A stretch of DNA of 12,440 bases. Source: Sphingobacteriia bacterium. GTDB lineage: Bacteria; Bacteroidota; Bacteroidia; Chitinophagales; Chitinophagaceae. Below, in pieces: positions 1,364 to 12,440 of this stretch. The DNA lies in assembly GCA_004294465.1 (NCBI GenBank), contig REAV01000176.1:1-12440 (forward strand), in the 5' to 3' direction. Below the pieces are notes generated by a model. It searched no databases, was not told the DNA's origin, and saw only the letters and a list, made by a program, of their open reading frames with translations. Position numbers and translations under genes: made by a program. The first letter of the stretch is position 1. Each line of letters opens with the position of its first letter.

Positions 1364-2329
1364 ATGGATCAGGCAATAACTGCAAAGCCATCTCGTATTA
1401 CTGCCCTTTTCAATATTCAATATCCAATTATTCAAGCTGGAATGATCTGGGCCAGTGGTTGGAGATTGGCAAGTGCAGTAAGTAATGCAGGCGGATTGGG
1501 TTTGATTGGAGCTGGTAGTATGTACCCGGAGGTTTTAAGAGAACATATTCAAAAATGTAAAGCTGCAACTAGCAAACCTTTTGGGGTAAATGTGCCATTA
1601 TTGTATCCGAATATTGAAGAAATTATTCAAATTATTATTGAGGAAAAAGTACCCATTGTTTTTACCAGTGCTGGAAATCCAAAAACATATACTTCACGTT
1701 TACAATCACATGGTATTAAGGTAGTGCATGTAGTAAGTAGCAGCAAATTCGCTTTAAAATCTCAGGAAGCTGGATGTGATGCGGTTGTTGCAGAAGGGTT
1801 TGAAGCAGGAGGGCATAATGGTCGTGAAGAAACCACTACCATGGTATTGATACCAGCAGTTAAAGCTGCTATTACTATCCCTTTAATTGCAGCAGGTGGA
1901 ATTGCAACTGGCAAACAAATGTTGGCTGCAATTGCTTTAGGTGCAGATGCAGTTCAAATAGGGAGCAGATTTGTGTGTAGTACAGAAGCATCTTCTCACG
2001 AAAATTTTAAAAATGCAGTGGTTAATGCTGCTGAAGGGGATACGCAGTTAAGCATGAAAAAATTAGTTCCTGTTCGATTATTAAAAAATGATTTTTTTAA
2101 AGTTGTGAATGAGGCAGAAACAAAAGGTGCAGACGAAAATCAATTGAAAGAAATTCTTGGGCGGGCAAGGGCAAAACGTGGCATGTTTGAAGGAGATATG
2201 GTAGAAGGAGAATTAGAAATAGGGCAGGTTTCATCACTTATTACCACAATTAAACCTGCCGCTGAAATTGTACAAGAAATAGTAGCAGAATACAATACTA
2301 CCATACAAGCTTTTCGGCATACTATATAA
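1364..2329 (+). CDS. Nitronate monooxygenase / FabK-like FMN flavoprotein
   Basis: A 321-residue TIM-barrel flavoprotein of the 2-nitropropane dioxygenase family. Members oxidise toxic alkyl nitronates (nitronate monooxygenase) or, in the FabK branch, reduce enoyl-ACP. The N-terminal PIIQAGMIWASG (21-32) and SNAGGLGLIGAG (40-51) are the usual first strands. EGFEAGGHNG (144-153) carries the likely catalytic His151. AAGGIATG (176-183) and ALGADAVQIGSRF (191-203) form the FMN phosphate-binding end of the barrel. Length is normal. It starts 43 bases after the nucleotidyltransferase stop on the same strand, so co-transcription is plausible; there is no obvious functional link. Its last 8 bases overlap the end of the convergent DsrE-like gene. 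Motifs fix the family firmly, but the choice between nitronate oxidation and enoyl reduction is not decided by what I can see. Confidence 0.85.
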   Translation: MDQAITAKPSRITALFNIQYPIIQAGMIWASGWRLASAVSNAGGLGLIGAGSMYPEVLREHIQKCKAATSKPFGVNVPLLYPNIEEIIQIIIEEKVPIVFTSAGNPKTYTSRLQSHGIKVVHVVSSSKFALKSQEAGCDAVVAEGFEAGGHNGREETTTMVLIPAVKAAITIPLIAAGGIATGKQMLAAIALGADAVQIGSRFVCSTEASSHENFKNAVVNAAEGDTQLSMKKLVPVRLLKNDFFKVVNEAETKGADENQLKEILGRARAKRGMFEGDMVEGELEIGQVSSLITTIKPAAEIVQEIVAEYNTTIQAFRHTI

Positions 2330-2804
2330 ATAACATATGCGTGCCAAGACCACTCCCTTGTTTATAGAAATCTCCTACAGTAATTACATCGTTTACTCCT
2401 TCGTATAAATCTTCCTTTTTATAATGGAACATTTCCATTGCTAATTTGCAGGCCCAAAGCTTTACTCCGGATGCAGTAAGAATTTCCAAAAACTCATGTA
2501 CATCAGGCATGTCAATTTTTTCCATTTCTTTTTTCATCATAGATGTTGCCAAAGCTTCCATTCCTGGCAAGCCTCCTAACATAGTAGGCATGTGCATTGC
2601 AGGGTTGCCTACTGTTGCTACATGCAAATGTTCTAGTTTCTTTTTGTGAATCGCCTCTAATCCAAAAAATGTAAAAAACATTTCTGCTTCAATACCTTCC
2701 ATCCTTGCACCATTTGCTAATACAAATGCTGCATAAACATTCTCTAAAGTTGCTTTAGAAAGAATGATCATCATTTTTTTGATTTCACCATTAAACTCGT
2801 TCAT
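2322..2804 (-). CDS. DsrE2-type (DsrE/DsrF/DrsH-like) sulfur-carrier protein
   Basis: A 160-residue protein of the DsrE2 (DrsE_2) family. Related DsrE/TusD proteins carry sulfane sulfur as a cysteine persulfide and pass it to TusE/DsrC partners. Visible features are a conserved start of fold, MMIILSKATLENVYAAFVLANGA (from residue 11); a methionine-rich central segment containing GNPAMHMPTMLGGLPGME (66-83); and GVKLWACKLAMEMF (113-126), whose Cys119, the only cysteine, sits where the family's sulfur-accepting cysteine is expected. Methionine makes up 16 of 160 residues, which I recall as usual for this family. The frame stays open to a further ATG at 2858, but that start would overlap the TusE gene by 35 bases. 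ATG 2804 leaves a 19-base gap and is preferred; a start at residue 11 is possible. It is the last gene of the sulfur cassette, convergent with the flavoprotein gene. Confidence 0.85.
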   Translation of the reverse strand: MNEFNGEIKKMMIILSKATLENVYAAFVLANGARMEGIEAEMFFTFFGLEAIHKKKLEHLHVATVGNPAMHMPTMLGGLPGMEALATSMMKKEMEKIDMPDVHEFLEILTASGVKLWACKLAMEMFHYKKEDLYEGVNDVITVGDFYKQGSGLGTHMLFI

Positions 2805-2823
2805 AACATTTTTTTTAATTGAT

Positions 2824-3132
2824 TTAAATACAGCTAGCGGGCTTTGGTATTCCAGCAATTTTAGTTGCTGTTTTTAAAGGTGCATTTGGAAATAATGCAT
2901 AGAATTCTTTAATATCTACGATGCCGCTTTTACCTATTCTACGAATACTTAATGCTACTTCGTTTTTGTGTTCTTCCTGTAAATAGTTGATTACTTCCCA
3001 ATGACGAGGGGTGAGTTCAATGTTTACTTCGTTGGCAATGGCGTCTCCAATAGATTTATCCCATTGAGCGAAATTGGTTAAATAACCTTCTTCATTTACT
3101 GTAATTGCTTTTCCAGCTAATTGCTTTTCCAT
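2824..3132 (-). CDS. tusE: TusE/DsrC-family sulfur relay protein, single-cysteine form
   Basis: A 102-residue member of the TusE/DsrC/DsvC family, small cytoplasmic proteins whose flexible C-terminal arm carries persulfide sulfur. Matching features are VNEEGYLTNFAQWDKSIGDAIA at the N-terminus, ELTPRHWEVINYL (39-51) and the C-terminal arm KIAGIPKPASCI (91-102). The penultimate Cys101 corresponds to the active CysA. The position eleven residues earlier, occupied by CysB in true DsrC proteins that work with dissimilatory sulfite reductase, is Thr90. The protein therefore resembles TusE, which acts as a persulfide carrier (in E. coli, towards MnmA for tRNA 2-thiouridine), more than DsrC, which forms an intramolecular trisulfide. 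It lies 14 bases after the SQR-like gene and 19 before the DsrE2-like gene, clearly one transcription unit. No tusBCD or dsrAB genes are in view. Confidence 0.9.
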   Translation of the reverse strand: MEKQLAGKAITVNEEGYLTNFAQWDKSIGDAIANEVNIELTPRHWEVINYLQEEHKNEVALSIRRIGKSGIVDIKEFYALFPNAPLKTATKIAGIPKPASCI

Positions 3133-3146
3133 AACATAGTTTTTAT

Positions 3147-4382
3147 TTATTCAAAATTTTTTCCTGCTTCCTGCATAGTTGCTGAAACAAATGGAATATG
3201 AGTTCCTTTTAATAAAACATTCCAATATATCCACTTGAATGCAAGCTTGCCCATATGGTTCATCCTGCTTTCTTTTAGTAAACGCAGTGGTCCTATTCCA
3301 GGAAAAGGGAATGATCCTTCTACTGGTTCGTGGGTATAATTAAAATCAATCAATAAGGCTTTCCCGTTTCCGGTTTCAATAAAGCAGTTTGCATGTCCAT
3401 CAAATTCTTCTTTCAATAGTTCCCCTTTAATGAAACGGATAATGTTTTCAGTTAAAATTTCTGCTTCAAAGTGAGCAACAGAACCCGCTTTTGATGCAGG
3501 AAGGTTGCTTGCGTCTCCCAAAACAAATATGTTTTTAAAAGCAAGGGATTGAAGTGTTGCTTTATTGGTTGGAACATAATTTAAATCATCTCCTAATCCA
3601 GATCTTTCCATTAATTCATCCCCTTTGTTGGTAGGTACTGTAACCAATAGGTCAAAATCAATGGATCTGCCTCCATAGTCAATTATTTTTTTATTGTCAT
3701 TGTCCACTTCGGCAATGGCAAAGTCACTTTCAATTTCAATATTTTTTTCAGATAATAAATGTTCTAAAGCATCAGTTGCTTTGGGTTTTGTAAATGCACC
3801 GCTTAATGGGGTCACATAGGTAATACTTACCTCATTGCGTATATTTTTGTGTTTGAAAAAAGAATCTGCCAAAAATGCAAATTCTAAAGGCGCAACAGGG
3901 CATTTTATGGGCATTTCTGTTATATGAACTACCAATCTTCCTCCAGGCCAATCCCTTAGTTTATTTCTTAAAGCAAATGCTCCTTCGAAAGTGTAAAAAT
4001 CAAAAACTGATTTTTGCCACTCTTTTCCTTTCATACCAGGAATTTCTTCAGGAGCAATTTTTGCGCCAGTAGCAATAATTAATACATCATACAAAATGCT
4101 ATTCCCATCTTTCAAGATTACAGTATTATTAGCAGCATCAATTTTTTCAATTTTTGCAGTTAATAAATTAACCCCCTTGGGAATAAATTCCTTGACGGTC
4201 TTAATGATATCACTTGGAGTATATATATCAAATGGTAGAAAAAGATAGCCAGGTTGATAATGGTGTTCTTCTCTTTCATCAATGATTTGAATTTCCCACT
4301 CTTTTTTATCGAGCTCATGATGGAGATGGTTGGCCATCATTGTTCCAGCTGTTCCTGCTCCCAAAATAACTAGCTTTTTCAT
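3147..4382 (-). CDS. Sulfide:quinone oxidoreductase-like FAD flavoprotein
   Basis: A 411-residue two-dinucleotide-binding-fold flavoprotein of the SQR/FCSD branch, which oxidises sulfide to sulfane sulfur or polysulfide and passes electrons to quinone at the membrane surface. FAD binding is shown by GAGTAG (8-13), IIATGAK (102-108) and NIFVLGDASNLPASKAGSVAHFEA (from residue 284). There are only two cysteines, Cys161 in PIKCPVAPLEF and Cys333 in GHANCFIETG. They occupy positions expected for the conserved redox pair that bridges sulfur. The third cysteine of classic SQRs, near residue 125, is absent. The aromatic C-terminal segment MGKLAFKWIYWNVLLKG (377-393) resembles the amphipathic membrane-binding helices of SQR. 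It heads an operon with TusE- and DsrE2-like sulfur carriers, which supports a sulfide substrate. Alternatives are a sulfur- or persulfide-processing flavoprotein that is not quinone-linked, or a type III/V-like SQR subtype; placement needs a phylogeny. Confidence 0.82.
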   Translation of the reverse strand: MKKLVILGAGTAGTMMANHLHHELDKKEWEIQIIDEREEHHYQPGYLFLPFDIYTPSDIIKTVKEFIPKGVNLLTAKIEKIDAANNTVILKDGNSILYDVLIIATGAKIAPEEIPGMKGKEWQKSVFDFYTFEGAFALRNKLRDWPGGRLVVHITEMPIKCPVAPLEFAFLADSFFKHKNIRNEVSITYVTPLSGAFTKPKATDALEHLLSEKNIEIESDFAIAEVDNDNKKIIDYGGRSIDFDLLVTVPTNKGDELMERSGLGDDLNYVPTNKATLQSLAFKNIFVLGDASNLPASKAGSVAHFEAEILTENIIRFIKGELLKEEFDGHANCFIETGNGKALLIDFNYTHEPVEGSFPFPGIGPLRLLKESRMNHMGKLAFKWIYWNVLLKGTHIPFVSATMQEAGKNFE

Positions 4383-4452: not shown

Positions 4453-4473
4453 TATGATATGATGAATATCATA
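4453..4473. repeat. Perfect 8-base inverted repeat, candidate second operator
   Basis: TATGATAT (4453-4460) and ATATCATA (4466-4473) are exact reverse complements around a 5-base spacer. It lies 19 bases after the SDR gene stop and is centred about 65 bases upstream of the inferred sulfur-cassette transcription start. The arms are AT-only except for one pair and no T-run follows on the minus strand, so an intrinsic terminator for the SDR operon is unlikely. An upstream operator is more probable. Confidence 0.35.
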
Positions 4474-4491: not shown

Positions 4492-5247
4492 TTATTTATG
4501 CAAATAAAAAGAGTTGGCCTGCGATAAACAGGTAACCGTTAAATCGTTGATACATACATGCTCCGGTAAATTAGCGGTATAAAAAACGATATCCGCTACA
4601 TCTTTTGCTGCCAAAGCTTTGTATCCATCATATACCATTTCTGCTTTTTGTTCATTTCCTTTGAATCTAACTAATGAGAATTCAGTTTCTGCTGCTCCAG
4701 GGTGAACAGCTGTTACTTTTACCTTATAAGGCAATAAATCAATTCGCATTGCTTTGCTAATAGCATCTACCGCATGCTTGGAGGCGCAATACCCATTGCC
4801 ATCTTTATATACTTCTTTACCAGCAGTTGATCCAATATTTATGATATGTCCTTTTTGTTGTTCCATAAAAATGGGTAGCACTGCTTTAGTAACATACATT
4901 AATCCTTTTACATTGGTATCGATCATGGTATCCCAATCATCGAGGGATGCATTTTCAAAACTATCTCTACCTAAAGCCAAGCCTGCATTATTCACCAATA
5001 CATCTATTGATCTCCATTCAGCAGGTAAGTTGTCAATCGTTTCAAAAACTGCTTTTCTATCTTGTACGTCAAAGCAGCAAGACAATACTTTTATATTGAA
5101 TTGACTGGTGAGTTGATTGGTCAATTCGGTCAGGCGATCAGCCCTTCTTCCAGTAATGATGCAGTTCCAACCTGCAGCAGCAAATGTTTCAGCAATAGAT
5201 TTTCCAAAACCCGATGTAGCACCAGTAATTAAAATAGTTTTAGGCAT
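4492..5247 (-). CDS. Short-chain dehydrogenase/reductase (SDR), NAD(P)-dependent
   Basis: A 251-residue classical SDR that would oxidise or reduce a hydroxyl/carbonyl pair with NAD(P)(H) in the cytoplasm. The cofactor loop is TGATSGFG (8-15) and the basic residues GRR (33-35) after strand two favour NADP(H). NNAG is at 86-89 and Asn112 lies in DTNVKG. The catalytic triad is Ser140 in NIGSTAG, Tyr153 and Lys157 in YCASK, and HPGAAETEF (182-190) is the usual motif after strand six. The overall pattern resembles YdfG-type 3-hydroxy acid/serine dehydrogenases, but the substrate is not determined. The frame extends upstream to 5316, deep inside the hydrolase gene. ATG 5247 is chosen because MPKTILITGATSGFG is the canonical N-terminus and it leaves an 8-base gap to the hydrolase stop. 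It is the last gene of the guaB-lnt operon. Confidence 0.87.
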   Translation of the reverse strand: MPKTILITGATSGFGKSIAETFAAAGWNCIITGRRADRLTELTNQLTSQFNIKVLSCCFDVQDRKAVFETIDNLPAEWRSIDVLVNNAGLALGRDSFENASLDDWDTMIDTNVKGLMYVTKAVLPIFMEQQKGHIINIGSTAGKEVYKDGNGYCASKHAVDAISKAMRIDLLPYKVKVTAVHPGAAETEFSLVRFKGNEQKAEMVYDGYKALAAKDVADIVFYTANLPEHVCINDLTVTCLSQANSFYLHK

Positions 5248-6074: not shown

Positions 6075-7649
6075 TTAAATGAATCGTTTTTTAATTTTAT
6101 TATATATGCCCAATATGATAATCAATATAGAACCAATCAATCCTATTAAAAATATATAATCACCATGTTTAACATAAAAGGTGATTTCATTGTTTAATGG
6201 AATATTGTATTTAATAATCGCAGCTTTGTTCCAAGGTTGCTGTTCTACAATCTGGCCCTTCTCATTGATAATTGCTGAAATGCCTGTATTGGCACTTCTT
6301 GCAACCCATCTTCTGGTTTCTATAGCACGTAATTTTGCATAAGCCAAATGTTGCAAATGCCCCGGAGTATTGCCCCACCATCCATCATTGGTAATGATGG
6401 TCAATAAATTGGCGCCTTGTTGAACATAACTGTTTACATATTCGCCATATATACTTTCATAACAAATAATCGGGGCCGCAATGATTTCATTTCCATTTGA
6501 TTTAAAAACAGATGATGAAGCTGATCTTCCATATCCGCCAGTACTTCCTCCAAATTGTTCGAAAACAGGGCTCATGAAACGAAGAAAAGATGGCAAAGAT
6601 TCAACACCAGGTACTAGTTTACTTTTATTATATAGTTGAATGGGCTCTCCTGCTTTGATGGCAATCGCTGCATTAAATGCATCGTAGTACATGCCTGAAG
6701 AACTTGCATGTGCGGTAGGCGTTTCTTTTATTGATCCATAATTTTTAAAAGTTTCGATTCCAGAAAGTATGGTAATATTCGGGTGCTGTCTTGCAAATTC
6801 AAAAATGGGTTGATAATATGGGTTACCCGTAATGTTCTCTTGCCATTCGGCTACACTCATAGCTGTTTCGGGCCAAATAATTAATTGAGTATTACTGTCT
6901 AATGCAGATGTTGAAAGCGATAATAATGAATTGATTTGCTGACTTGCATTGCTTAATTCAAATTTTTGATAAGGATCTATATTGGGTTGAACAACAATGA
7001 TGTTTTTATAAGCAGTTTTTTTTTCGCGATTAACTAAAGCGTTAAAATTAAAAATAGCGGTTAAAATAATTGGTAAAAGAAGAATCAATGTATATAATAC
7101 CCCCTTTTTTATTGTTCTTTGCTTATTTAAATCATTGTTGAATGAATAGCTTACTAAATTAAAATACAATACCAATAAAGATCCGCCACCAACACCTGTA
7201 TATTCATACCATTGTACATAAGTGGGATGACCTGCAAAAACATTGCCTAGTGTAAGCCATGGCCAGGACAGTTCCCAATTCAGGTGAATGTATTCAAAGC
7301 CTAACCAGAATAAACCTAACGCAACCAAGGAATATGGTTTACTGAATTTCGATTTGCAGATTGCATAACCCCACCAAGGCAAACACATCAATAAACTATT
7401 GGCTATAATGGCTGCAATTGCTCCAACGCTTGTTGAATTCCATAGCCACCAGGTGGTGGATGCATTCCAGATAAGCATTGTGATAAATGTGTAGCCAAAT
7501 ACTTCTTTTGGACTTTTTGAATGGTCAGCGACAAAAAGCAATGGTACAAAAGCAATAAAAATTAGAAAAGTAAAGTTCACATTGGGCCATGCAGCAAAGA
7601 GCAGCAAACCCGAAAGAACAGAGAGGACGAGCTTAAGTGTTTTTTTCAA
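6075..7649 (-). CDS. lnt: Apolipoprotein N-acyltransferase
   Basis: Lnt transfers an acyl chain from a phospholipid to the N-terminal cysteine of apolipoproteins, the last step of lipoprotein maturation in the inner membrane. The 524-residue protein has an N-terminal bundle of about seven hydrophobic segments between residues 5 and 205, including the WELSWPWLTLGNVFAG signature (125-140). A periplasmic nitrilase-like domain follows (about 214-485), then a final membrane segment (about 498-516) with a basic tail. The catalytic triad is visible as Glu261 in IIWPETAMS, Lys342 in YNKSKLVPGVE and Cys397 in PIICYESIYGE. TNDGWWGNTPG and RAIETRRWVARSANTGISAI are also diagnostic. It begins 21 bases after the guaB stop and is probably co-transcribed with it. 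Length and motifs are normal for a functional enzyme. Confidence 0.95.
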   Translation of the reverse strand: MKKTLKLVLSVLSGLLLFAAWPNVNFTFLIFIAFVPLLFVADHSKSPKEVFGYTFITMLIWNASTTWWLWNSTSVGAIAAIIANSLLMCLPWWGYAICKSKFSKPYSLVALGLFWLGFEYIHLNWELSWPWLTLGNVFAGHPTYVQWYEYTGVGGGSLLVLYFNLVSYSFNNDLNKQRTIKKGVLYTLILLLPIILTAIFNFNALVNREKKTAYKNIIVVQPNIDPYQKFELSNASQQINSLLSLSTSALDSNTQLIIWPETAMSVAEWQENITGNPYYQPIFEFARQHPNITILSGIETFKNYGSIKETPTAHASSSGMYYDAFNAAIAIKAGEPIQLYNKSKLVPGVESLPSFLRFMSPVFEQFGGSTGGYGRSASSSVFKSNGNEIIAAPIICYESIYGEYVNSYVQQGANLLTIITNDGWWGNTPGHLQHLAYAKLRAIETRRWVARSANTGISAIINEKGQIVEQQPWNKAAIIKYNIPLNNEITFYVKHGDYIFLIGLIGSILIIILGIYNKIKKRFI

Positions 7650-7670: not shown

Positions 7671-9170
7671 TTATTTCCTGCTATAATTAGGCGCTTCTTT
7701 GGTAATATCTATATCATGTGCATGACTCTCTTTCATACCAGCATTGGTGATTTTAATGAATGTAGCTTTTTGCAATGCATCAATATTTTTTGCACCGCAA
7801 TAACCCATTCCAGATCTTAATCCACCAACGTATTGATAAATGATCTCGCTCAAACTTCCTTTATAAGCAACTCTTCCTTCAATTCCTTCTGGTACAAATT
7901 TTTTGATATCGGCTTCCACATCCTGAAAATAACGATCGCCACTTCCCTGGCTCATGGCCCCTAAGCTTCCCATGCCTCTATACTCTTTGAATTTTCTTCC
8001 TTCATAAATGATGGTTTCACCAGGGCTTTCTTCAACACCAGCAAACACACTTCCCATCATTACCATATTTGCTCCAGCAGCCAATGCTTTAACCATATCT
8101 CCAGTATAGCGAATACCACCATCTGCAATCAATGGAATACCCAATGGCTTTAGAGCAGCAGCAGCTTCCATCACAGCAGTTAATTGTGGTACACCTGCAC
8201 CTGCAACAATTCTGGTTGTGCAAATAGAACCTGGTCCTATTCCCACTTTAACACAATTGGCACCAGCAAGCGCTAAAGCTTTAGCACCTGCAGCGGTTCC
8301 TACATTGCCTGCAATAATTTGTAAATTTTTGAAATTCTTTCTCAATGCTTTCAAAGCTTCAATCACTCCCTTGCTATGGCCATGAGCACTATCTAATGTT
8401 ACTACATCTACCCCTACTTGCTGTAATGCATATGCTCTGTCCATGAGATCTTTGGTAATCCCTAATGCAGCGCCAGTAAGCAATCTGCCTAAATTGTCTT
8501 TTACCGCATTCGGAAAATTGCGGATTTGTAATATATCTCTATAAGTAATTAATCCAATTAACTTGCCTTGTTTATTTACTACAGGCAGTTTTTCGATTTT
8601 ATAATTTTGTAATATTTTTTCGGCTTTTTTAAGGTCGGTACCTTCAGGAGCAGTGATGAGATTTTCTTTTGTCATCACTTCTTTTACTTTCCGTTTTTTA
8701 TCGGTCTCAAAACGTAAATCTCTATTGGTTAATATGCCTACTAATTTTCCACCACCATCAATAATTGGAATTCCCCCAATTTTATTATCCTTCATTAATA
8801 ATAATGCATCTCCAATGGTTGCATCAACTAATAAAGTGATCGGATCTATGATCATGCCACTTTCACTACGTTTTACTTTACGTACTTGTTCGGCTTGTTT
8901 TTCAATCGACATGTTTTTGTGCAAAATGCCTAAGCCTCCTTCTCTTGCAAGGGCAATGGCCAAATTGGCTTCGGTAACAGTATCCATAGCAGCCGATAAA
9001 ATGGGCACATTCAGAATAATGTCTTTGGTAAGATGAGCACTAATGTTCACTTCTCTGGGAAGTACTTCGCTGAATGCGGGCATCAGCAGAACATCGTCAA
9101 AAGTTAATCCTTCACCAAATAAACGGGAAGTGGTTTTGCTTTTTGTGGAGCGGTTGAGGTTTGTTGCCAT
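7671..9170 (-). CDS. guaB: Inosine-5'-monophosphate dehydrogenase
   Basis: GuaB oxidises IMP to XMP with NAD+, the committed step of GMP synthesis. The 499-residue protein has the usual order: N-terminal barrel start with [18 protein letters not shown] (21-38), tandem CBS domains (about 105-220, each ending in a TNRD/TYRD-type turn), then the rest of the barrel. The active-site loop [11 protein letters not shown] (310-320) carries catalytic Cys317. DGGIR (350-354), GSVFAG (373-378), the flap after [10 protein letters not shown] (398-407) and the Arg413-Tyr414 dyad in GDRYFQD are all present. The frame stays open upstream to 9284 inside the divergent transporter gene. ATG 9170 is preferred because it gives a standard length and lies immediately downstream of a promoter box. 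It heads the guaB-lnt-hydrolase-SDR unit. Confidence 0.97.
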
Positions 9171-9173
9171 GTG

Positions 9174-9206
9174 CAAAGATAGTCTTGTGATCAAATTCCC
9201 TCCAAA
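9174..9206 (-). promoter_or_regulatory. Probable guaB promoter, possibly giving a leaderless mRNA
   Basis: On the minus strand TTTG (9206-9203), 21 bases, then TATCTTTG (9181-9174) match both elements of the Bacteroidota consensus exactly. Only three bases separate the -7 box from the ATG at 9170, so the usual start about four bases after the box would coincide with the first base of the start codon. Confidence 0.6.
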
Positions 9207-9217
9207 AATATTTATAG

Positions 9218-9225
9218 TAACTTTG
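9218..9225 (+). promoter_or_regulatory. Probable -7 box of the MFS transporter gene
   Basis: TAACTTTG matches TAnnTTTG exactly, and the inferred start near 9229 gives a leader of about 27 bases to the ATG at 9256. There is no good TTTG at the expected -33 distance, so the promoter may be weak or regulated. It lies 11 bases from the guaB -33 element in the opposite orientation. Confidence 0.4.
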
Positions 9226-9255
9226 CTGCATTTCCAAAATTGACTGCTCCTAACA

Positions 9256-10458
9256 ATGTCTGAATTAAAGCCAACTGCTACCACACCCTATTTTACTTTT
9301 CAGTTTGCGCTTCTATGTTTGAGCAATTTCCTGTTTGCCACTAGTTTTAATATGATGATTCCTGAGTTGCCAGGCTATCTTACTTCTTTAGGGGGAGCTG
9401 AATACAAGGGATTGATTATTGCTTTATTTACTTTAATGGCAGGTATTTCCAGACCCTTTAGCGGAAAACTTACCGATACTGTAGGAAGGGTTCCGGTAAT
9501 GATTTTTGGTTCATTGGTCTGTGTAGTATGTAGTTTATTATATCCTATGCTTACCAGTGTAGCAGGCTTTTTATTCCTTCGATTTTTACATGGGTTTTCC
9601 ACTGGGTTTAAGCCAACAGCAACTGCAGCATATGGTGCAGATGTAGTACATGAATCAAGAAGGGGAGAAGCATTGGGCGCATTGTCGATTGGGTATACTT
9701 TAGGATCTTCTGCCGGCCCCATGATTGGCAGTTATTTAGTAGACTATTTTAGTTATAACGTCATGTTTTATGTGTCTGCAGGCTTTGCCCTTGCATCTGT
9801 AGGGATTTTATACAATGTTAAAGAAACATTGAAGGATCCTCAGCCATTTAAGCTACAATTATTGACGATTAATAAAACAGAAATATTTGAAAAAACTGCA
9901 TTAAGGCCAGCCATTATTACTTTATTACTTTGTTTTTCAATCGGAACAATTCTAACGATAGCGCCCGATCTAAGCGAACATTTGGGATTGCACAATAAGG
10001 GATTATTTTTTGCATTTTTTACGATTGCTTCTTTATTAATCAGAGTGGTGGCTGCTAAAGTATCTGATCGATTTGGAAGGGTGCCCGTTTTGTTGGTATC
10101 TTCTTTTGTATTGGTAATCGCATTGATTGTTTTAGCATTTTCAAATTCAGTACCATTAATGATGATTGGATCGGTTATTTATGGTTTAAGCTGGGGAATA
10201 AATAGTCCTGCTTTGAGTGCATGGACGGTTGATCTTTGCGCTCCAGAAAATAGAGGAAAAGCGATTGCATCTATGTACATTGCTTTAGAAATTGGCATAG
10301 GTACTGGGGCCATTTTTTCTGCATGGATATACAATAACAATGCGGATCATTTCACCTATGCATTTTTGTTGCCCGGTTTTTTTGCGCTGCTTGCTTTTTT
10401 CTTATTGATTCGATGGAATAAAAAAGCTAAGCGAGCGCAATCTTTTTCCCAGGGATAA
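9256..10458 (+). CDS. Major facilitator superfamily transporter
   Basis: A 400-residue polytopic inner-membrane protein with about 12 hydrophobic segments in two six-helix halves, separated by a polar linker near residues 188-215. MFS motif A appears in both halves, as [12 protein letters not shown] (69-80) after helix two and [11 protein letters not shown] (267-277) in the second half. A motif C-like [16 protein letters not shown] (146-161) lies in helix five, a feature of drug- and metabolite-efflux antiporters, so export is more likely than import. The substrate cannot be told. The tail KKAKRAQ is basic and cytoplasmic. It is divergent from guaB with an 85-base shared intergenic region, and its last 32 bases overlap the end of dprA on the opposite strand. 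The start at ATG 9256 fits the promoter box at 9218. Confidence 0.9.
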
Positions 10459-11521
10459 CTTGAATCATTTGCTGAAGTTCTAAATTAAGGATGATTCCAG
10501 CCATTTTACCAGCGTTGAATCCTGTTTTAATCAACAATTCTTCCATAGAAATAGACGACTCTTTTTGCAATAGCTCAATCAGTATTTTTTCTTCATGATT
10601 TAAAGATTCGAATAGTTCCAAATGTTTTTTAAAGGGGTCTTTTTTTGCTGACCAGTTTAATGTTTCTAATAAATGTTCGGGGGAAGAAAATAATATGGCT
10701 TTGTTTTCTTGAATCAGTTTTAAACATCCACTACTTTTTGGGTCGTTGATTTTTCCGGGTACTGCAAATAATTCTCTGTTATAATGAAAAGCCAAATCTG
10801 CAGTAATCATACTCCCCCCTTTTACAGCAGTTTCAATAACAACGGTTGCGTCAGACATGCCAGCTACAATGCGGTTCCTTCTTGGAAAATTGTATTTATC
10901 TGTTGGCGTATTGCGATTAAACTCTGTGAGTAAGCCACCTTGTTCAATCATTTCCTTCGCTAATGATCGGTGTGCTCTTGGATATAAATTATCCAATCCA
11001 TGTGCTAATACGCCAATGGTGTTTTGCTTGTTTTTAAGTGCTGCTCTATGAGCAATTGCATCTATGCCAAATGCCAGACCACTAATTACTGTAGTGTTTG
11101 ATGGTAATTGTTCAATTAATTTTTCGGTGACTGATCTTCCATAATGAGAATTGGTTCTGGTGCCAATAATACTTATGATTCTTGTTTCATTCAATAATGC
11201 ATTGCCTTTATAATAGAGTAATGTTGGAGCATCATAACAATTCATTAAACGCGTAGGATAAAAATGATCGCCAATCATTAATGGTTGTATAGCATGCTTT
11301 TGGATGAAATTCATTTCTTCATCTACTCTTTTAAAATCGTTCCAACCTTTAATATTACTAGCTGTCCATTCACCAATGCCATCTATTTGACATAAGGCTG
11401 TTTTAGATGCTTTAAAAATATCCGCTGGATTAGAAAAATGTTCCAACAATTTTTTTTGTAAGACTGGTCCAATGGTAGGAACCATCGTAAGGGCAATCCG
11501 ATGCCTTAAATCTGCATGCAT
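10427..11521 (-). CDS. dprA: DNA-processing protein DprA
   Basis: DprA binds single-stranded DNA entering during transformation and loads RecA on it; many non-competent bacteria also keep it. The 364-residue protein has an N-terminal helix-hairpin-helix region (about 5-60, with IDGIGEWTASNI), the extended Rossmann fold (about 85-285) and a C-terminal winged-helix-like domain (about 305-360). Diagnostic motifs are IIGTRTNSHYGR (118-129), SGLAFGIDAIAHRAAL (147-162), GLDNLYPRAHRSL (175-187), FPRRNRIVAGMSDATVVIE (212-230) and KGGSMITADLA (234-244). All core elements look intact. It follows the OmpA-family gene by 56 bases on the same strand, without a clear promoter of its own in that gap, so read-through is possible. 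Its 3' end lies inside the 3' end of the convergent transporter gene. Confidence 0.95.
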   Translation of the reverse strand: MHADLRHRIALTMVPTIGPVLQKKLLEHFSNPADIFKASKTALCQIDGIGEWTASNIKGWNDFKRVDEEMNFIQKHAIQPLMIGDHFYPTRLMNCYDAPTLLYYKGNALLNETRIISIIGTRTNSHYGRSVTEKLIEQLPSNTTVISGLAFGIDAIAHRAALKNKQNTIGVLAHGLDNLYPRAHRSLAKEMIEQGGLLTEFNRNTPTDKYNFPRRNRIVAGMSDATVVIETAVKGGSMITADLAFHYNRELFAVPGKINDPKSSGCLKLIQENKAILFSSPEHLLETLNWSAKKDPFKKHLELFESLNHEEKILIELLQKESSISMEELLIKTGFNAGKMAGIILNLELQQMIQVIPGKKIALA

Positions 11522-11577: not shown

Positions 11578-12440
11578 TTAAATCTGGGTGATAGTAACGG
11601 TGATTCTTCTGTTTTTAGCTTTCCCTGATTCTGTTTTATTATCCCCAATGGGTTGGCTATCACCAAAACCTTTGAATCGAAGTCGATTGTTAGTAATGCC
11701 TTTATTAATCAACCAGTCTACAATGGATTTGGCCCTGTTTTCGGAAAGTAGTTGATTATCTGACTGTTTGCCAACATTATCGGTATGTCCGCTAATGAGT
11801 ACTTGAAGAGAAGGATTTTCTATGAGTACCTGTAATAATTTTTCTAATTCAATATATGCATCTTGTGGAAGCTGGTATGAATTGGTGGTAAATTGAATAT
11901 TTCTAAAAGTTAATGAAGCGTTTAACTCAATAGGTTGTAATGCAATATCTTTTTGATAAACACTGTCTGCTTGCTTATTGCTGAGTTCGTATAACTCATT
12001 AAAGTATAAATATCCTTTTCTATTTACAGAAAAGGTATAGTCTTTACCTATCGGTAGCGTAATAAAATATTCACCTGTTTCATCTGTTTGAACTTTCATC
12101 AACACGGTTCCAGTTGCATTATTAATCAACTCAACTGAAGAAGGTAATTTTTTGCCCGTTTTTTTATCGATGATTTTTCCTTTTACATATAAGGTTCTGT
12201 TGGGTCTTATATCTGGTCGCATTTCAAATTTATACAAATCAAGTTGCCCTCTGCTATCACTTCGGTCACTTGCATAGTATGCAGTTAAGCCATCTGCAGA
12301 AACTGCCAAACTGCCTTCATTTTCTATTGTATTAATTGGATAGCCCAGGTTTTCCGGAATACCCCATTCTCCTTTATTGTTTTTTCGAACGATGTATAAG
12401 TCTGTTCCACCATATCCAGGTAAACCATCTGAAGTAAAAT
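11578..12440 (-). CDS. OmpA-family envelope protein with PD40 and regulatory-like domains, N-terminus outside the window
   Basis: The frame is open to the right edge (286 whole codons visible), so only the C-terminal part is seen and no start should be assigned. Reading from the edge there are two PD40/WD40-like beta-propeller strands with the SDG...GGTDLY and SADGLTAYYASDR...LDLY pattern (12438-12220). A carboxypeptidase-regulatory-like beta-sandwich follows (about 12195-11990, VKGKIIDKKTGKKLP...DETGEYFITLP). Last is an OmpA C-terminal peptidoglycan-binding domain (about 11913-11587) with SGHTDN (around 11787), a LLSENRAKSIVDWL helix and the final NRRITVTI. This domain order matches PorE, a peptidoglycan-anchored lipoprotein of the type IX secretion system, but many Bacteroidota paralogues share it and the N-terminal TPR region that PorE has is not in view. 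It should sit in the periplasm, attached to the outer membrane. Confidence 0.87.
   Translation of the reverse strand, partial: FTSDGLPGYGGTDLYIVRKNNKGEWGIPENLGYPINTIENEGSLAVSADGLTAYYASDRSDSRGQLDLYKFEMRPDIRPNRTLYVKGKIIDKKTGKKLPSSVELINNATGTVLMKVQTDETGEYFITLPIGKDYTFSVNRKGYLYFNELYELSNKQADSVYQKDIALQPIELNASLTFRNIQFTTNSYQLPQDAYIELEKLLQVLIENPSLQVLISGHTDNVGKQSDNQLLSENRAKSIVDWLINKGITNNRLRFKGFGDSQPIGDNKTESGKAKNRRITVTITQI

Follow-up and report, generated by a model that had tools for sequence, protein, structure and literature searches.

A conserved gene cassette of SQR, TusE and a DsrE2-like protein in Bacteroidota as a candidate sulfur relay

The locus described here raises the question of where the sulfur of a sulfide:quinone oxidoreductase (SQR) is delivered when the SQR gene is followed directly by genes of two protein families known as sulfur carriers. 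SQRs are widespread in heterotrophs, and their sulfur has usually been assigned to a dioxygenase, to rDsr or to sHdr (PMC12345210, excerpt). Within the 12,440 nucleotides analysed from contig REAV01000176.1 (in the following, the window), the original prediction had recognized three genes and proposed that sulfide sulfur passes from the flavoprotein via DsrE2 to TusE, for detoxification, tRNA thiolation or cofactor synthesis.

The cassette and its gene products

The three-gene cassette is real and consists of three minus-strand ORFs with family matches for each (Table 1), and a re-count has given the same gaps of 14 (sqr-tusE) and 19 bases (tusE-dsrE2, both from ORF coordinates). For the dsrE2-like ORF, the ORF tool has also offered a longer TTG start at 2858, which would overlap tusE. 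Two of the predicted family names have held, as the SQR exceeds the cut-off of NF049943 (643.6 vs 525 bits; "type III SQR, selenoprotein subtype", a label that is the name of the NCBIfam model) and the TusE that of TIGR03342 (83.7 vs 53.5 bits), whereas the third protein is named only DsrE2-like because its score against the DsrE2 equivalog NF047629 lies under the cut-off (106.1 vs 210 bits).

Table 1. Features of the cassette and its upstream region in the window
Feature	Position	Strand	Description	Match or location
sqr	3147-4382	(-)	sulfide:quinone oxidoreductase, 411 aa	NF049943 643.6 bits
tusE (TusE/DsrC-family carrier)	2824-3132	(-)	102 aa	PF04358 95 bits, TIGR03342 83.7 bits
dsrE2-like (DsrE-fold carrier)	2322-2804	(-)	160 aa from ATG	PF13686 120 bits
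Crp/Fnr-type inverted repeat TATGATATTCATCATA, putative operator	4458-4473	(.)		far end 91 bases before sqr ATG

Whether the flavoprotein belongs to the SQR group had been made decisive beforehand, and both the NF049943 score and the fold place it inside: its nearest solved structure is human SQOR (Foldseek best match, TM 0.86), although the sequence identity is 25%. C161 (codon 3900-3902) and C333 (codon 3384-3386, in a HANC motif) align with the two catalytic cysteines of human SQOR, have been found in 111/111 distinct rows (114/114 with duplicates), and are predicted from the sequence to form the redox pair. Human SQOR gives its sulfur to small thiols or sulfite, and we know of no TusE or DsrE2 that accompanies it. 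In the selenoprotein SQR, selenocysteine has been located in an HxxU motif (PMC13188914, excerpt); the SQR of the window carries no selenocysteine and represents the cysteine form of the model, with TGC at 3384-3386, and no in-frame stop has been detected in any of the 73 over-cut-off NF049943 matches.

The two cysteines on which the predicted relay depends are correctly positioned. TusE contains a single cysteine, the C-terminal C101 (codon 2830-2832), with a threonine 11 residues before it. This penultimate cysteine is retained in 103/104 distinct rows, the window's included, and the exception (L146, genome G278) has a tyrosine, so that the last transfer step would be dispensable there, or the gene is decaying. 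The second DsrC cysteine, 11 residues upstream, occurs in none of the 104 distinct rows (Thr 72, Ser 19, Ala 13), and by its absence the protein is not a DsrC proper, the partner of DsrAB; the same cysteine is missing in most family members from organisms without DsrAB (PMC3397948, excerpt). The DsrE2-like protein likewise has one cysteine, C119 (codon 2448-2450), conserved in 103/103 distinct rows, and its nearest fold is 2qs7 (SSO1126, E 7e-12; DsrEFH 2hy5_B, E 2e-4; Foldseek). SSO1126 is a DsrE2B (PMC4175335, excerpt), the group of the Metallosphaera cuprina DsrE2B.

Conservation, distribution and the upstream repeat

The neighbourhood search across Bacteroidota, on which the prediction had been staked, has confirmed the adjacency. 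In a phylum sample of 296 genomes, 73 contain an SQR over the cut-off, and after exclusion of the 45 that belong to family f32, the order and strand of SQR-TusE-DsrE2 are the same in 28/28 genomes from 15 families. Among the best 80 of 239 relatives, ranked by SQR similarity, TusE follows just downstream in 80/80 and DsrE2 in 79/80, in the same order; in the remaining locus (L031) the contig ends after tusE. As these 80 loci were chosen by SQR similarity, they favour close relatives, and the 296-genome sample is the fairer count; taken together, the linkage in both sets argues against chance adjacency. Two of the 80 loci (L068, L081) are labelled planctomycete, which reflects either transfer or a binning error. 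At locus L138, genes resembling soxY, soxZ, a cytochrome and a second flavoprotein (named by eye) lie just downstream.

SQR and TusE also co-occur in an all-or-none manner: of 40 related genomes, among them that of the window, 4 combine an SQR over the cut-off with TusE and 36 have neither. Outside f32, 28/29 genomes with a TusE over the cut-off carry the cassette. The pairwise distances of the three proteins are correlated (Spearman 0.87-0.91 over 106 rows), to which shared ancestry contributes. Because three locus pairs had identical proteins (L019/L158 and L051/L154, in both of which the contigs are also equally long, and L071/L076), counts are reported for distinct rows, in which related loci are still counted separately; the values change little. 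The cassette is found in the cultured Ferruginibacter paludis, Hydrotalea sandarakina, Lacibacter cauensis and Flagellimonas species, and in none of the 15 records, all gammaproteobacterial and 33-38% identical, returned by a plasmid search for TusE. The open-access literature, represented mostly by titles and abstract openings, has yielded no description of SQR-TusE-DsrE2 in Bacteroidota.

Upstream of sqr, the repeat at 4458-4473 provides the window's sole TGAYNNNNRTCA, of which 1.02 would be expected by chance. Inverted repeats of the form TGA-N6-TCA with at least 4/6 complementary pairs have been observed in 67/107 distinct upstream regions, compared with a mean of 5.1 and a maximum of 11 in 100 shuffles. 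A Crp/Fnr-type site also precedes hydrogenase-like genes, 13/14 evaluable persulfide-dioxygenase-like (PDO-like) genes and 5/7 TauE genes. The putative operator probably serves a Crp/Fnr-type regulator that controls the cassette along with other sulfide-response genes. Some Crp/Fnr-type regulator copies encoded nearby carry a CxxSxxC motif that could act as a persulfide sensor; a relative of one candidate Crp/Fnr protein has not been found in the window's genome (G000) at E 1e-15. The -7 promoter box motif TAnnTTTG, present in only 16/80 upstream regions vs 6.3 on average across 50 simple shuffles, has been set aside as too weak. Consensus promoters in the region number 11, close to the shuffled mean of 9.4.

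Genome-wide partners and known systems

The usual partners had been described as missing from the window, in which ORFs 6075-7649, 7671-9284, 10427-11521 and 11578-12438 lay outside the family-library search. Genome-wide, this has proved correct for TusB/DsrH (0/31 cassette genomes), for dsrA (0/31 over the cut-off; weak matches in 7/31, at most 44.5 vs 392.85 bits) and, with one exception in 31, for TusA, in genomes with a completeness of 70.6% (G000) or at least 93% (the other 30). Judged by TusB/DsrH and TusA, the cassette genomes lack the TusABCDE tRNA relay. The absence does not extend to the persulfide dioxygenase (PDO): an MBL-rhodanese protein at G000:C129, 54% identical to the PDO-like neighbour of a relative, is likely a PDO encoded in the window's genome. 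None of the families tried has provided an acceptor gene that every cassette genome shares.

The cassette is a variant of the known SQR-DsrE-TusA and dsr-island arrangements in which TusE replaces TusA. In the sulfur island of M. cuprina, the SQR (Mcup_1723) adjoins a DsrE homologue (DsrE4, Mcup_1724) and a small sulfur carrier (TusA, Mcup_1722), a likeness in gene arrangement; in contrast to the cassette, the carrier is TusA and not TusE/DsrC, the organism is archaeal, and its genome has an Hdr-like cluster (PMC4175335, excerpt). The rhd-tusA-dsrE2 and dsr island of green sulfur bacteria likewise unites DsrE2 and DsrC with an SQR that matches the same NCBIfam model, but includes TusA, DsrA and DsrH, a rhodanese, DsrB and DsrL (these three by eye) and a two-cysteine DsrC, and its DsrE2 is 34% identical to the DsrE2-like protein of the window. 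One f32 genome (L165, G216) contains such an island in the order sqr-rhd-dsrE2-tusA-dsrN-dsrC-dsrA-dsrB-dsrL (partly named by eye), and f32 is called green-sulfur-like by gene content alone. The f32 SQRs are 46-48% identical to that of the window (11 loci); flanks of up to 1.5 kb at these 11 loci contain no TusE or DsrE2 match, and in several f32 genomes DsrC- and DsrE2-family genes lie on the same contig. The earlier description of the system as under-described still fits, yet has to be tempered by these archaeal and f32 precedents.

A DsrE-fold protein is also combined with a TusE/DsrC carrier in TusABCDE of E. coli and in DsrEFH-DsrC of A. vinosum, from which the cassette genomes differ by lacking TusB/DsrH in 31/31 and TusA in 30/31; the cassette carriers would be fed by SQR, in contrast to IscS or TusA in those relays. 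The staphylococcal cst operon (CstR, CstA, CstB, Sqr) resembles the cassette in placing SQR beside sulfane-sulfur proteins (L179), but there the SQR is joined by a sulfurtransferase and a dioxygenase instead of TusE and DsrE2.

Proposed relay and alternative destinations

We consider it rather probable that the cassette forms one functional unit for sulfide oxidation in which sulfane sulfur stays protein-bound and is carried by the DsrE2-like protein and TusE; the conserved linkage without the usual carrier partners suggests a short, self-contained relay. SQR, probably membrane-associated, would oxidise sulfide via C161/C333 and FAD and pass the electrons to quinone while the persulfide stays on the enzyme. 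The sulfur, not merely released as polysulfide, would reach C119 of the DsrE2-like protein directly or via a small persulfide, then C101 of the single-cysteine TusE, and from there an acceptor encoded outside the cassette. Of the relay as predicted, the SQR with both cysteines, the tight conserved linkage and the lack of TusB and dsrA in the 31 cassette genomes searched have been borne out; the transfer steps are predicted, as is their direction, which cannot be read from linkage alone. Such a step has a parallel in vitro, since a related DsrE complex passes sulfur to the penultimate cysteine of DsrC (PMC3397948, excerpt). Gene context also speaks for the relay, with the SQR at the start of a dsr island in one f32 genome (partly named by eye) and the sox-like neighbours at L138 (by eye). 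Two published results speak against it: M. cuprina DsrE2B was inert to every sulfur compound offered and accepted no thiosulfate from the proteins it works with (PMC4175335, excerpt), and A. vinosum DsrEFH and DsrC took no sulfur from small persulfides (PMC3397948, excerpt).

The alternative with the best standing, though rather unlikely, is detoxification, in which TusE or DsrE2 would pass the sulfur from SQR on to an MBL-rhodanese dioxygenase whose gene lies elsewhere and TauE would export the resulting sulfite. A search confined to forms with a rhodanese domain gave MBL-rhodanese matches of 200 bits or more in 22/31 cassette genomes, among them that of the window. Genes for PDO-like, YeeE-type and rhodanese proteins and for TauE each occur in the fetched flanks of 8-17 of 110 distinct loci, and the Crp/Fnr-type site precedes most of the PDO-like and TauE genes, as given above. 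However, 9/31 cassette genomes have no such match and 5/5 cassette-free relatives do, so PDO and cassette are not tied, and PDO as an obligate acceptor is weakened. Sulfur oxidation via sHdr or reverse Dsr encoded elsewhere appears very unlikely: in one green-sulfur-type genome a dsr island begins with the SQR, and CCG-domain (HdrB-like) proteins are present in 27/31 cassette genomes, but PF02754 is too broad to assign these to sHdr, the other 4/31 have none, and dsrA is confined to the weak matches given above. It is highly improbable that, as in E. coli, TusE supplies sulfur for tRNA 2-thiolation or for making cofactors, even though it belongs to the family of that relay (TIGR03342; relay in PMC3397948, excerpt), as TusB/DsrH and TusA are missing as described and the patchy occurrence (4/40 genomes) is unlike a housekeeping role; the genome searches for TusB/DsrH, TusA and dsrA speak against dsrAB partners as well as against tRNA thiolation, one of the destinations first proposed, and both have been rejected. 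Equally improbable is a persulfide gauge or protein regulator made of TusE and DsrE2 in place of a bulk carrier, for which one may cite that the one-to-one linkage is stable although no terminal enzyme belongs to it, and that one TusE has no cysteine, against the almost invariant Cys101 and Cys119 and the separate Crp/Fnr-type repeat that could already provide control.

For the SQR to DsrE2 to single-cysteine TusE relay, a conserved SQR with two dedicated carriers and no known terminal enzyme suggests that an acceptor is missing from the picture. Tentatively, heterotrophic Bacteroidota may possess a self-contained relay of this kind to an undescribed terminal acceptor or oxidase, switched on by a Crp/Fnr-type regulator and forming one arm of a regulon to which PDO-like, sulfite-export and, in Flagellimonas-type genomes, uptake-hydrogenase-like genes would also belong. 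If true, TusE/DsrC would have a role that is part of neither tRNA thiolation nor the Dsr pathway, partly in bacteria that are already in culture.

Composition of the cassette

The gaps that the original prediction gave between the three cassette genes are borne out by the ORF positions (Table), and the 3' end of the DsrE2-like ORF overlaps a convergent FabK/nitronate-monooxygenase-like gene by 8 bases. The flavoprotein, SQR-like in the original prediction, is an SQR by its match to NF049943 (type III sulfide quinone reductase, selenoprotein subtype), which reaches 643.6 bits against a cut-off of 525, and human SQOR is its top PDB match both by sequence and by fold (TM 0.86, from a structure model with pLDDT 91.8). 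C161 and C333, which align with two cysteines of human SQOR, have been kept in 111/111 distinct rows. Passages of a 2026 review (PMC13188914) give HxxU as the motif of this selenoprotein family; the window SQR carries HANC with the codon TGC and is therefore the Cys form. An in-frame stop has been found in none of the 73 over-cut-off SQR matches of a 296-genome Bacteroidota sample. Among the matches listed, those with a name that come closest belong to a Chitinophagaceae MAG and to Ferruginibacter.

Regarding the carriers, the penultimate Cys of TusE is present in 103 of 104 distinct rows, and the position 11 residues before it is never Cys (0/104; Thr 72, Ser 19, Ala 13), in agreement with the single-Cys pattern that sections of PMC3397948 describe for most DsrC-family members in organisms without DsrAB. 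At locus L146 (genome G278) Tyr replaces the penultimate Cys, the rest of the cassette being intact. The third protein has a DsrE fold (predicted model, pLDDT 87.1; closest structure 2qs7) and C119 in 103/103 distinct rows, and misses the DsrE2 equivalog cut-off (106 vs 210 bits). No sulfur link has been found among the other window proteins searched with Pfam (nucleotidyltransferase, alpha/beta hydrolase, MFS), and the source assembly (1.78 Mb, 233 contigs, 70.6% complete) contains one DsrC-family match.

Table. Positions of cassette, control-region and neighbouring features (L, gene loci)
Feature	Position or loci	Strand	Remark
SQR	3147-4382	minus	ORF, first of three consecutive
TusE/DsrC	2824-3132	minus	ORF, 14 bases after SQR
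DsrE2-like protein	2322-2804	minus	ORF, 19 bases after TusE/DsrC
FabK/nitronate-monooxygenase-like	1364-2329	convergent with cassette	
Short-chain dehydrogenase	end at 4492	same as SQR	upstream, 109 bases from SQR start
TATGATATTCATCATA	4458-4473		perfect inverted repeat, Crp/Fnr-type
TGAYNNNNRTCA	4460-4471		within the repeat
TusE with Tyr	L146:5681-5986	minus	
Crp/Fnr-family proteins with CxxSxxC	L006:12501-13148, L014:12333-12950, L032:1004-1621		and five others
DUF1641-type gene	L132, L133, L136, L138, L144, also L106 and L141		SQR-TusE gap, deeper lineages
Hydrogenase-/Hyp-like genes	L054, L056-L058, L060, L069-L073, L076, L078		after cassette

Conservation and genomic surroundings

With each species represented by a single genome, a scan has yielded 239 SQR relatives, and in all of the best 80 of these TusE lies directly downstream in the same order, followed by DsrE2 in 79; at the sole exception, L031, the contig stops after TusE. 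SQR exceeds the cut-off in 73 of the 296 sampled genomes, 45 in the green-sulfur-bacterium-like family f32 and 28 elsewhere (own included). The linkage across Bacteroidota for which the original prediction asked has been observed, in the order SQR-TusE-DsrE2, in 28/28 of the latter, from 15 families. Outside f32, TusE exceeds its cut-off in 29 genomes, the 28 cassette genomes and G199, which has no SQR match at E 1e-50. G199 encodes two divergent DsrC-like proteins (L170 on G199:C73, L171 on G199:C75), one with the C-terminus QCLCE. Of 40 genomes (own included), 4 possess both an over-cut-off SQR and TusE and 36 neither of them (Fisher p 1e-5, uncorrected for relatedness), 18 of these 36 having below-cut-off distant flavoprotein matches. 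Two planctomycete-labelled MAG contigs (L068, L081) carry a Bacteroidota-like cassette with 69-71% SQR identity, reflecting either transfer or a binning error.

The match gap between SQR and TusE widens to 732-836 bases in 7/28 cassette genomes; it is occupied in five by a one-cluster protein, of which one member searched with Pfam is DUF1641, and in two by a similar reading frame, judged by eye. TusA, oxidoreductase and DUF1641 genes also adjoin on a haloarchaeal plasmid. DUF1641 is a possible partner protein of SQR.

Among the 31 cassette genomes searched for partners, TusB/DsrH and over-cut-off dsrA are found in none (weak dsrA-profile matches, at most 44.5 bits, in 7) and TusA in one, G227. 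CCG-domain proteins, known at domain level, occur in 27 and are absent from 4, and MBL-rhodanese matches of at least 200 bits occur in 22 (own included) and also in 5/5 cassette-free relatives. In the flanking sequence retrieved for 110 distinct loci, genes occur for rhodanese (17 loci), PDO-like (persulfide dioxygenase-like) MBL-rhodanese (11), YeeE-type (11 and 10), Crp-like (10) and TauE proteins (8), named from one Pfam-searched member each. A hydrogenase small subunit-like gene lies ~6 kb downstream of the cassette, with Hyp-like genes in between, at 12 Flagellimonas, Muricauda and Allomuricauda loci (by eye; two with identical cassette proteins). In G044, soxY-, soxZ-, cytochrome- and second-flavoprotein-like genes follow the cassette (by eye). 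In the f32 genome G216, SQR is the first gene of an island sqr-rhd-dsrE2-tusA-dsrN-dsrC-dsrA-dsrB-dsrL..dsrH, in which dsrE2, TusA, DsrC, dsrA and DsrH have been confirmed by searches and rhd, dsrN, dsrB and dsrL named by eye.

Sulfur transfer and related arrangements

The SQR reaction itself is established chemistry. DsrE-to-DsrC sulfur transfer has been established in vitro for A. vinosum, according to sections of PMC3397948, and by analogy the trio would combine both steps, along the originally proposed relay from sulfide via DsrE2 Cys119 to TusE Cys101. The inertness in vitro of archaeal DsrE2B, reported in parts of PMC4175335, and the Cys-less TusE of L146 argue against such a transfer. 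Passages of PMC4175335 also describe SQR-TusA-DsrE4 in an archaeon and rhd-tusA-dsrE2 in sulfur oxidisers, and cst operons are a further related arrangement known previously. The portions of open-access literature searched yielded no description of a stand-alone SQR-TusE-DsrE2 unit.

A Crp/Fnr-type repeat upstream of SQR

The far end of the inverted repeat is situated 91 bases upstream of the SQR start, and the short site within it is the only one in the window. Since a mean of 1.02 such sites is expected by chance in 12.4 kb, this single occurrence is itself unsurprising, and the case for a control site is built on conservation. A TGA-N6-TCA repeat with at least 4/6 complementary pairs has been found in 67/107 distinct upstream regions of 250 bases (68/110 with duplicate loci kept), where 100 dinucleotide shuffles gave 5.1 on average and never more than 11. 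It precedes 65/112 SQR-family ORFs vs 121/695 of the remaining ORFs (150 aa or longer) at the same loci. It also precedes 13/14 evaluable PDO-like, 12/12 hydrogenase-like and 5/7 TauE genes; certain further neighbours have their intergenic region in common with SQR.

Ten Crp-like ORFs have been found across 10 loci, eight with CxxSxxC in the sensor domain, and these are possible thiol or persulfide sensors. A relative of one Crp-like protein is present in 19/31 cassette genomes vs 7/12 others and is therefore not cassette-specific; it has not been found in the incomplete source genome, and its congener G021 has one. We infer that this Crp-like protein would bind the TGA-N6-TCA-type site before SQR. 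The genes preceded by the repeat (SQR, PDO-like, TauE and hydrogenase-like) constitute a candidate sulfide-response regulon of Bacteroidota.
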